Positions 10,301 through 16,300 of a stretch of 64,000 nt of DNA are shown here, piece after piece. The notes below the pieces were generated by a model that was given only the letters and a program-made list of their open reading frames with translations, did not search any database and had not been told where the DNA came from. The stretch comes from Anadara kagoshimensis (taxonomy: Eukaryota; Mollusca; Bivalvia; Arcoida; Arcidae), in assembly GCA_021292105.1 (NCBI GenBank), contig CM037868.1, positions 26,066,732-26,130,731 of the forward strand, given 5' to 3'. Made by a program: the position numbers and the translations under genes. Position 1 is the stretch's first letter; each line of letters opens with the position of its first letter.

Positions 10301-13300
10301 ACTAAATATTCAGCTTAAGCCCATATCGCGAAAGTTAATAGTTGCGAAATGGTTTTAGTAAGAGAATCGGGAAAGTTAATACCCGAATAAAATTTGGTTT
10401 ACAGTAAACCCAATCAAAAATCAAACTTAACGAGAGGTTGATAGGTCATGCTAGTTTACTGAAGTGTAAACATTATTCTTTTCAATAAGTTTCATAAAAA
10501 TATCCTTGAGATTACTATAAAAGAATGTAACCAGTAAACATAGATCCGTTCAACAGTGCATGTAGGCTTTTGCTTTTACAAACTGCAAGTGTACATAGAC
10601 AGCAGCAGTCACTATTATGAGTTTATTCATCTTGCATTCAGTCAAAATGGCGCCCTAAAAACATAATTGATGAAGTTGTTGTTGAAGGTTGCTTAATGTT
10701 GCATCAGCAATTTTTCAGCTATTTGTGACAAAAACTATTTTATCAATCCCTATGGATTAATCTATGAACAAGTTTGTGTATGCATTTGAAGTGTGAGTGT
10801 GTTTAATGGACTGCTTTTGTACCATCACACACTCAGACCCACTTTAAGGTGCTAGCTCACAGAGTCAGTATGCAGCAACCAAGATTATCACTCCCCCAGT
10901 CACATTATACTGACACTGGGTGAACCAGTAAAGGCACACAGCAAGGAAAATTTACTTTCCCACATGTGGTCTGAGCAGGACTCAAACTCACAGCAGTGAG
11001 AGATCCTTAATTTGTAGACTGAGATCTTATCCATTAGGCCACTGTGGCCTAACAAAAAACATAATTGGGGAATTGCTTTTAATAAGTTCCGGAACCAGCA
11101 GTTTGCAACATGCATTTCCCCACTCATGTCACAGTAATTTTTATCTTTCTGAAGGTTTTCCTAGCTTTTTTTTTAGAATCTTTTTCGGAGCATAAAGTAA
11201 ATTCACTTTCGCCTAGGGACTTCCGGTATGGCGACAAGCTGAAATCACGGGTGATATAGCTCTTCATGCAAAGGTGTATTATATGAAACGTATTCAAGAT
11301 ATGGTCATCTCTGGTCAATAATACCTAGCAGGATAAGTTAGAGTTTCAGTTTAACGATAGTTCAGGCAGACATTAACTACAGAAACTGTGATATTGTGGT
11401 ATTTTCTATTATTCACGGGTGAGAAATGTCAGACGGTGCTATGGAGGTCGATAGTAAGAAAATTAGTTCCGAGACAGAGACAAGGGTACGGAATCTGTAT
11501 GCTGGAAAGGACATGTCTGAATGTTTTATGCTGCTGCATTTGCGTATGGAATCCGAGATGCAGTCGGTTAAATCGGAGGTCGCTGAGGCTAAACATGAAA
11601 TTTCGGAGGTATCCACGAAGGTTAAACACATGGAGTCCTTTATTGAACATGCAAACGATTCATTTCGGGAGATACACGAGAAATTGATCCCTAATCTTGA
11701 GAGCAAGTTTCAGGAAAATCTTACAGGTGAGAAACATGAACGTCTTCGTTTAGAAATGTGGGGGCGAAAGTGGAATCTAGTTGTACGGGGTATACGTGGT
11801 GTACTTAGAGAACCTCCCCGAGAAACAGAAAAATTAATCCGGAACTTTTTTACTGAGGTTTTGAAATTATCCCCGGATTTTGTAAACACCATACAATTTC
11901 AGGCAATCCATAGGCTCCCAGGGGGTGTAGAAGATAAGAGGAGTATTATTGTCCGATTTGTTAGTTTGATAGATCGTGATGATGTCTTAGAAGCCGGAAA
12001 AAGGTTATCTAGGGGCTCTGGTTACAGCATAGTTCCCGACTTGACACCTGAAGCGAGTAGACTTAGGTCCGAACTTTTGAAACGCCTACATGAAATGTCT
12101 CCGTCTGAGAAAAAAAATATAAACTGGTGTACACTAAAGAGTTCCCGTTTGTCATTCTAAAGAAAAGAAACTGAAACTTTTTTGACATTTCATGTGTGCC
12201 TTTTAAACGTGTTTTCGTAGTTATATCATAATGAACCAGAATATTTCTATATATTTATAGTATTGTAAAATACCTCCTTGACTCTCCCAATTGTCACCTC
12301 AAACATAAATATATCGATGGACTACAAATAGTTGTAAACAGAGCGTGTTAATAAAACACATACTGCATGATCGATAGCTGTATGGTTATCTAATCACGCT
12401 AAAACTCCCTGTCATGGTTCTTACACATATATATTATACGTTTAATTGCTTTGATACAGACTATATTATATTATATAAAGACTGTATATTTATATATGGT
12501 GGCGCATTCGGGGTTATCTATGTATTACTATTATTTAGGTCGATCACGGCTTAGGGGTTATATATAAATCGATTCTCGATATCTGTTTTGCCTTTTCAAT
12601 TAATGCGTAAAAAGGCGTGATTGTTCTAAAAATAGTATGTTTTGATTGGGTGATAATACCCGATGTGCCGACTTTTAACACTATATATATAGCTTTTACA
12701 CTGCCATCCAGAGACAACTACACGAATTGTCACAGGTTGATATTATAATCATAATACGAGGTCGTGTATATTGGAGTTTTCATGTATTTGTTAATTATAT
12801 CACTTGATTATATGAGTGTGTTTAGTGAGACTGTGTTTCTTGTGAATGGGTTTTCTTTGGGTGGCGTTGTAGGGGCTAGATGTTACAATGTATTTCATTG
12901 TCTAAATAATCGTCTCTTTATTTTTTTAACCTTTACTTTTACTTTCAGAAAACTCCAATGTAATTTACGTTAAAGGCCCGGATTGCATTTTATCCAATTT
13001 TTACCCTTGTGATGTAGTTTACCAAGAAATATTATTTAAAAGTACTGAACACATTTATCAATTTTTGAAAGCAAGATTTCACGGGCAATTGGAATTAGCT
13101 GAAAATATTAGGAGATCTGACGATGCAAAATTAGCAAAACGCGAATCAAAGAAAATTCTGAGGTCTACCCGCACTTCTTTTTGGCATGAAATAAGATATG
13201 ATACCATGGAAAGCATTTTGAAAATTAAATTTGAGCAAGTTAAAGAATTTAGAACAGCACTGGTTAACACGGGAAACTCGGCAATTATTCATAATGTTCC

Positions 13301-16300
13301 ACACCATATTTGGGGTATTGGGAAAAATGGAAGGGGCTTTAATTACTTTGGACAAATATTAATGAAAATCAGAAATGAATTAAAATAATTTAATATGTCT
13401 TACTGTTTAGGTATGTTACATGAAGATATGTAAGTATTTAATATAGTTGAATGTTTTGAAAATCTTATTTATTTTGTTTTATTTAGTTTGTTTTTAAGTT
13501 ACTCTGCAGGTAGCAGACAGACTTTCAGAATTATATAATAAACCTGCAAGAACATAATGGATACTAACTTCAGTCGTATGAATTTCTCCTTGCAGGTTTG
13601 TTAAATGGTTCTGATAGTTAACGTTGTTTGTTATTTATTTTTCAGTTAAACATTTGTAAAGGATATAATATAGAGATAACTTTTGCTCATTCGTTGAGGA
13701 TATTTCTTCTTCATCGTTTTCAGACCTACATTGCCCTTTTATATTTTATCTGAATTATCTGCATGTATGGTATTATAAATTTTTACTGCAATTACGACCT
13801 TTTTGTAACACTTTTTTTTCAAAAATATCACTGCACTTATAACGAGCTGACACCAGATTTACAGAATAATGTACTCTATTTTGAAAAAGGGAAGTAGATT
13901 CTGTGGGGGGATTAAATATTTTTCGGGGGATAAAAAAAACATCATCACTCGTATATTGTTGAAGTTATTTTATTCATGCAATATAAAATTTCACACATCC
14001 ATGTTATCAATATTTTCTAATTTTATGTGTAAAAATGACCCAAAGTAATTTAACAATTGGCAGCGTTAATTGTCGGGGATTGGCTGATACGATAAAAAGA
14101 AGGGACATTTTTAACAAATGTAGAAAAAAATATGACATTACCTTTATTATCGATAGTCATTGCACTGAAAATCTTGAGTCTGTCTGGAAAATTGAATGGG
14201 GTTATGTTGCAAAATTTAGTTCTCATACCAGCAACAGCAGAGGAGTCATTATTCTTTTCAAAAATAGTTTTGAATTCGAAGTACACAGAGAGATCATTGA
14301 TAAGGAGGGTAATTATATTATTCTAGATATATCAATACAAGGGAATCGGATAACCTTAGCTGCTATTTATGGCCCGAACAGTGATAAACCCGAGTTCTTC
14401 AAAATATTGCAAGATAAAATTGAGATGATTGGTAACACATCCGTTATTATTGGAGGTGATTTTAATGTCCCCTTGGACTACACCCTTGATACTAAAAACT
14501 ATAAAAACAAAAACAATCCCAAATCTCAAGAACAGATTCTTTTTCAATTAATACCAAATTTAGATCTTGTTGACGGTTTTCGAGAATTAAATACTAATCC
14601 AAAACGTTGTTATACATGGACAGGTCCGGACAATAAACAAGCACGCCTAGACTATTTCTTACTGTCATCAGATTTACAACTGTTTTTAGTAGAGGCAAAC
14701 ATTGATATACGATATAGGTCTGACCATTGCCCAGTAACCCTTTCTTTAAATCTTCTTAACCAAAATCGTGGAAAAGGAACATATAAATTTAGAAACGATC
14801 TACTTAATGATCCAGACTATGTTAATCTTGTTAAAAATACCATTAAATCTGTTATTGAAGAATATAAAATTGACGAAGACAATTTTAGTATAAATGACCA
14901 GCTTCTTTGGGAGACAATCAAATTAATGATAAGGGGGAATACAATTGCTTTCTCAGCAAATAAAAAACGCGAACGAAAAAAAAAGAATCTGATTTGGAAA
15001 ACCGACTTTATTCTTTATACAATAAAGAAAATCAAGAAGAATACAAAAATCAAATAATTATCTTAGAAAACGAATTAAAGGCTTTGAGGGAAGAAAAAAT
15101 AAAAGGAATATTAATAAGAGCGAAGGCAAAATGGAAAGTAGAAGGTGAAAAAGGAACAAAATATTTCTGTAATCTTGAAAAACGAAATTACATTGAGAAA
15201 ACAATACCGTTTATTATTGCAGAAAATGGCTCTACTTTAACTGATCAATCACAGATATTAAACGCCCAAAAATCTTTCTACGAAAATCTGTACTCTTCTA
15301 AAAACATTGATCATCCTTCAGAATTCTTCTTTAATAAAAATAATTCATATTTTAATTTCCTGACAAAAGATATAAGTGATTCTTTGGAGGGGAAGCTAAA
15401 CAAAAGTGAATGCCTTGAAACATTGAAAAATATGAAAAATGGAAAATCGCCGGGGATGGATGGGTTTACAACAGAATTTTATAAATTTTTCTGGAACGAT
15501 ATTTCAAAGTATCTTATCAATTCACTGAACTATGGGTTTGAACAGGGTTCTTTATCTATATCTCAAAAACAGGGTATTATTACATGTCTCCCAAAAGAGG
15601 GAAAACCCAAACAGTTTTTAAAAAACTGGCGCCCAATTTCTTTATTAAATGTAGATTATAAATTGGCATCAGCAACGATTGCAAATAGAATTAAAAAAGT
15701 TTTAGATATTTTAATATCAGAATCTCAGACCGGTTTTATGAAAAATAGATTCATTGCTGAAAATACAAGACTTATTATGGACATGATTGAGAAAACTGAA
15801 AGAGAACAAATTCCCGGACTACTGTTACTACTAGATTTCGAAAAGGCTTTTGACTCAATTGAATGGCATTTTATTGAAAAAACTTTAGATTTCTTTAATT
15901 TTGGTGTTGACATCAAAAAATGGTTTAATACCCTTTATAATGGTGCCTCTAGCTGCATACAAAACAACGGTCACTGTTCTGCATTTTTTAATATAAAGAG
16001 AGGTGTTAGACAAGGAGACCCGCTTTCACCGTACTTGTTCATTTTAGCCGTTGAAGTTTTAAGTGCGGCCTTGAAAAATGATCCCTCAGTAAAAGGTATC
16101 TCTATAAATGATTCGGAATACTTAATAAGTCAATATGCCGATGACACAACATTAACCCTTGATGATGATCAAACATCTTTAAATCGTGCTTTAAATATTA
16201 TCAGTGACTTTGCTGCTGTTTCTGGTCTGCGAGCTAATTTTGATAAAACCCACGCTGTATGGATTGGAGCCAAAAGGGGCTGTGGTGAAACTATTAAAAC

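Follow-up and report, generated by a model that had tools for sequence, protein, structure and literature searches.

NADAR domains have already been reported in retrotransposons: the ORF1 proteins of several Crassostrea gigas Tx1 long interspersed nuclear element (LINE) families appear to be YbiA-family NADAR domains, one Ectocarpus Gypsy lineage contains the domain, and a role in processing RNA intermediates has been suggested for NADAR in LINEs (PMC12477816). The element described here lies in a 64,000-nucleotide stretch of Anadara kagoshimensis contig CM037868.1 (the window), and carries a NADAR frame (12930-13388, + strand, stop at 13386-13388) between the first and second open reading frames (ORF1 and ORF2) of a LINE. 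It resembles the oyster elements in being a bivalve L1/Tx1-type LINE with NADAR, but, compared by description only, it differs in that NADAR is described as the ORF1 protein there, whereas here there is a separate coiled-coil ORF1 and NADAR forms a second frame without an ATG (PMC12477816). The Ectocarpus Gypsy elements are similar in being retrotransposons that recruited NADAR (PMC12477816). The initial annotation of this DNA knew of no described LINE with such a module, which is contradicted by the report of the C. gigas Tx1 families (PMC12477816), and the novelty is lower than first claimed because LINEs with NADAR are already in print. The new part is the possible splice arrangement, not the NADAR domain in a LINE; no spliced coiled-coil-NADAR arrangement was found in the literature searched, which did not extend to Repbase, preprints or subscription journals.

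NADAR domains of animal RNA viruses also sit on a self-copying, RNA-based element of animals, but within viral polyproteins rather than a LINE, and without splicing in the account given of them (PMC9503650). NADAR-bearing RNA virus polyproteins were among the best viral matches of the domain in Foldseek. The nematode protein SNA-3 is another case of animal NADAR domains with a part in RNA metabolism, namely in spliced-leader trans-splicing, for which conserved residues are needed, but it is the product of a host gene with three NADAR domains, found only in nematodes according to that report (PMC9303266). Splice sites within LINE RNA that touch ORF1 are known from the human L1 SpIREs, although these are reported as evolutionary dead-ends with no added domain (PMC5860796).

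The frame runs for 152 codons without a stop (12930-13385), scores 89.1 bits (E=4.9e-25) with the PF08719 profile, whose curated cut-off is 35.1, and has the YbiA/NADAR fold. The initial annotation, which had recognized NADAR motifs between ORF1 and ORF2 and in the same orientation, was therefore right in coordinates, strand, motifs and domain. A chance frame is ruled out by this profile match together with the probability of ∼7e-6 for an open 152-codon frame at the composition of the two spacers.

The element is flanked by an exact target-site duplication (TSD) of 17 bp (11199-11215 and 18015-18031), as first noted, though the length is better given as 14–17 bp because the first three A of the right copy are indistinguishable from the end of the poly-A tail (12 A, 18006-18017, + strand). 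Inside the duplications, and all on the + strand, lie ORF1 (11426-12160), with an N-terminal coiled coil and a conserved half common to relatives, the NADAR frame, and ORF2. The first part of ORF2 encodes an apurinic-type endonuclease (14035-15057; PF03372, E=1.7e-8) and the second part, in another frame, a reverse transcriptase (RT) with zf-RVT (14964-17807; PF00078, E=9.1e-38, and PF13966, E=2.4e-8). Against solved structures, of which only those of L1 and R2 were compared, the RT matched L1 ORF2p at E=6.8e-62 and R2 at best at only 7.4e-25. The apurinic-type endonuclease, the L1-group RT, the TSDs and the poly-A tail are those of an L1/Tx1-type LINE, and the element is best explained as such a LINE of a bivalve (or other mollusc) lineage with a proposed NADAR exon as accessory module. 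Of its description as a young LINE, the intact TSD and tail agree, but ORF2 is split over two overlapping frames, by eye near an A9 run (14976-14984), and ORF1 seems to shift frame near an A8 run (12110-12117, inside the intron proposed below), since beyond it the C-terminal ends of several relatives align with the adjacent frame. These changes may reflect homopolymer assembly error or decay, both of which are possible.

The position of the frame between ORF1 and ORF2 stands, but the frame may be only one part of the gene, since NADAR is connected in phase to ORF1 by splice-like signals. A donor-like site, CAG/GTGAGA (11724-11732, + strand; cut after 11726, phase 1), scores 7.56, the best between 11200 and 12940, and ranks 17th when all 7327 GT sites in the window, counted over the two strands, are compared. 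An acceptor-like site, a pyrimidine tract ending in CAG at 12948 (12929-12951, + strand), scores 5.85, which is rank 33 among 6913 AG sites on both strands. The proposed intron of 1222 nt (11727-12948, + strand) would leave an in-phase joint and an open frame of 246 residues, consisting of ORF1 residues 1-100, one junction Glu and then NADAR, with the proposed exon starting at 12949 and the first complete codon at 12951. The cut falls behind the coiled coil (aa 40-67) and ahead of the invariant columns W116 to L188 of the conserved half of ORF1. With sites of the host kinase gene, placed by eye, as a yardstick (four acceptors scoring 4.05–7.58 and four donors scoring 2.01–8.09, the donor at 8.09 lying in an 80-bp tandem copy of an SH2 exon end), both LINE sites are within range. 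The number expected by chance is 0.0093 for acceptors of this quality within 36 nt and 0.034 for equally good in-phase donors within ORF1.

We tentatively propose, with confidence a little short of even, that NADAR is expressed by splicing from the ORF1 donor to the acceptor at the domain start, giving a coil-NADAR isoform in the ribonucleoprotein (RNP) of the element. Part of the element RNA would be spliced from the donor inside ORF1 (after residue 100) to this acceptor, yielding a 246-residue protein with the ORF1 coiled coil ahead of NADAR, and the unspliced RNA would provide both ordinary ORF1 protein (ORF1p) and the template for retrotransposition. The intron would persist in the element because only unspliced RNA is propagated. 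The isoform could join ORF1p oligomers through the common coiled coil and ride in the RNP. The conserved half of ORF1 is one that we take to be RNA-binding by analogy with L1 ORF1p, and it is similarly conceivable, at somewhat under an even chance, that alternative splicing swaps this probably RNA-binding half for NADAR on the same coiled coil, with mixed oligomers carrying NADAR in the particle. Once there, NADAR would remove or bind ADP-ribose on guanines of the element RNA or cDNA; by analogy with known NADARs, the domain on the ORF1 coil could clean or read ADP-ribosylated element nucleic acid, to the possible benefit of the element. If true, the LINE would keep a working intron, which is unexpected because copying via spliced RNA would remove it, and would make an isoform through which an ADP-ribose enzyme or reader enters its particle. 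This would also suggest that mollusc LINEs are held in check by the ADP-ribosylation of nucleic acids, and LINEs with a defined architecture would join RNA viruses and phages as NADAR carriers.

Several observations weigh against this proposal. The splice matrices were set by hand, and the product of the two chance expectations, ∼3e-4, was formed post hoc on the assumption that they are independent. The acceptor-like site at 12948 is surpassed by the strongest one in the element, at 13723 (13704-13726, between NADAR and ORF2), which scores 7.35 vs 5.85, and a second good donor-like site (11416-11424, cut after 11418, score 6.14) lies just before the ORF1 ATG. These two might give a spliced RNA for ORF2, or indicate that sites of this kind are frequent. 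In the ORF1 alignment, relatives do not share the residues at the donor, PF08719 was found in none of the 67 listed ORF1-family proteins, and the active-site loop of the domain is two residues shorter than that of relatives and lacks both loop acids. Splicing of human L1 RNA is also reported to inhibit retrotransposition (PMC5860796). A fusion of ORF1 to ORF2 by way of the acceptor-like site at 13723 looks unlikely, as by eye the joined frame runs into a stop.

Among the alternatives, the best placed, though rather unlikely in our estimation, is that NADAR is translated independently from unspliced RNA, as an accessory ORF belonging to the LINE family, by a non-AUG start, reinitiation or internal entry, with the splice-like sites there by chance. 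LINEs normally use unspliced polycistronic RNA, and six acceptor-like sites scoring >3 occur in the element, including that at 12948. The oyster NADAR domains, moreover, are termed ORF1 proteins, and splicing goes unmentioned in the description of them (PMC12477816). Against independent translation, the donor and acceptor are in phase and rank with the top sites of the window, and the frame, which opens behind a stop, has no ATG preceding the domain, its first Met lying deep within that domain. Translation of ORF1 and NADAR as one continuous ORF is ruled out for the present copy by intervening stops in all three frames.

A further possibility bears on activity rather than expression. In the Phytophthora nicotianae NADAR, K50 holds the phosphates, and E43 together with E125 the distal ribose (PMC11543638). 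E40 and K47 of the frame align with E43 and K50, and equivalents of both are present in 65 of 65 relatives, loci hand-picked from tables. H121 aligns with E125 of P. nicotianae, with the Glu of relatives or with the His of T4 gp30.3, depending on the alignment; in the larger alignments (one covering 167 of 170 loci, but not T4, which fell below its cut-off and was aligned separately) and in one of the alignments with T4, a two-residue gap is set so that the Glu of relatives faces the gap. The exact register at the last strand is not settled because gap placement differs between alignments, but in every placement the 16-residue last-strand stretch is without any acid and so lacks the Glu of the YbiA subfamily. 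A last-strand Glu is present in 64/65 relatives by pattern and in the 65th by eye, and DxxWG is kept in 65/65 (last aromatic W, F or Y). These counts apply to the NADARs of prokaryotes and viruses and not to those of animals, because the scans used a phage NADAR query with the best relatives kept (best 80 of 418 and best 80 of 258). A full YbiA-type active site is ruled out, as the Glu and the DxxWG Asp of relatives are missing, and two acidic active-site positions are most likely His in this predicted protein.

The domain may be a non-catalytic ADP-ribose reader or a decaying enzyme and not a hydrolase, which is considered quite unlikely. The shortened loop without its acids, vs the near-constant DxxWG and Glu of relatives, is consistent with this, as is the reported loss of activity in the D171A and D171N mutants of the E. 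coli C7 NADAR (PMC11543638). On the other hand, E40 and K47 are kept, and T4 gp30.3 has a His at the position aligned with H121 while the T4 NADAR is reported to be active on guanosine ADP-ribose of DNA and RNA (PMC11125620; PMC11833690). A His is the phage-type NADAR residue, and all tested NADARs, including that of T4, are reported to act on guanosine ADP-ribose in vitro (PMC11125620). NADARs were the sole hydrolase family, among those tested, to remove ADP-ribose from guanosine in RNA (PMC11833690), whereas YbiA and phage NADAR gave cells no protection from DarT1 (PMC11125620). T4 gp30.3 and other phage NADARs share with the frame the His at the last-strand position in some placements of the alignment gap, but gp30.3 is a stand-alone phage protein of ∼24% identity, and the gp30.3-type profile PF08010 gave E=0.016, below its cut-off. 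The initial annotation speculated that the element counters an ADP-ribose-based host response, and this stays conjectural: the fold, E40 and K47 fit a putative ADP-ribose site, but two acidic positions are most likely His. The changes to the active site follow in part a known pattern, and activity is therefore not predictable with confidence.

An improbable explanation is that this copy or a small subfamily captured a NADAR exon of the host together with the adjoining end of an intron, through an event such as template switching or DNA rearrangement, in a family otherwise without it. Such an exon would bring an acceptor-like site at the exact domain start, as seen here, and animal NADAR genes exist, molluscs included (PMC11125620). 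The absence of NADAR from the 67 ORF1-family proteins also agrees with a single capture, but these are ORF calls on contigs, so that a separate NADAR frame or exon could be missed. Further against capture, oyster Tx1 families with NADAR have been published (PMC12477816). The third-position GC content of NADAR (0.283) is like that of ORF2 (0.279 and 0.264) and unlike that of ORF1 (0.406), and the ORF2 codon table describes its codon use better than it does that of ORF1, although such a match could also come from an AT-rich host gene. The NADAR frame is also unbroken, whereas ORF1 and ORF2 each look broken. From the codon use, the open frame and the C. gigas report, we favour NADAR as a feature of the LINE lineage rather than a one-off, and infer that the family of these elements has it in common.

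Relatives of the domain were sought further. With tblastn, no relative was found in the viral contig set using NADAR or RT, or in the genome contig set using NADAR. VIA-align covered 235 of the 236 Foldseek chains and so does not bear on families absent from them. A custom NADAR profile run on 68 proteins matched only P0014 (next best 0.085 with filters off); this protein, the sole match of the NADAR exon search, resembles an ordinary NADAR of prokaryotic type, having EGN and DxxWG.

A mollusc or bivalve lineage fits because 9 of the 67 ORF1 relatives are named from Mytilus (M. coruscus, M. edulis and M. galloprovincialis). The closest, P0003, shares 60% identity over 58% of ORF1, but begins near the donor and says little there. 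The best coiled-coil stretch of ORF1 (aa 40-67) was matched by none of 300 shuffles. ORF1 had no Pfam match above its cut-off and no sequence relative in the PDB (best E=0.3), and a single-sequence AlphaFold model gave a mean pLDDT of 52.9 with only a hint of a long helix at 30-96. Two Mytilus proteins, P0020 and P0028, are deposited as FNBP1; this name looks like a misannotation because over their whole length they are members of the LINE ORF1 family.

An Rfam scan of the element at gathering cut-offs gave no match. A hairpin between NADAR and ORF2 (13514-13630; -41 kcal/mol, z -6.8 vs 200 shuffles) is the most stable 121-nt stretch of the element, and may be a small palindromic insertion or a structured RNA signal; its role as an expression signal is left undecided because equal or stronger hairpins occur elsewhere in the window.

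A FES-like kinase gene on the - strand (SH2 exon at ∼19181, kinase exon at ∼8595), whose best PDB match is Fes/Fps, holds the element in one of its introns, in antisense orientation. Adjoining the LINE is a tandem array (18096-19042) of 11.8 copies of an 80-bp unit, each of which, by eye, carries a copy of the end of the FES-like SH2 exon and a donor-like GAG/GTGAGT. A remnant of another LINE reverse transcriptase is present at 4548-5588 (+ strand), 25.7% identical to the RT of the NADAR-bearing LINE over 362 residues (E=2e-21).

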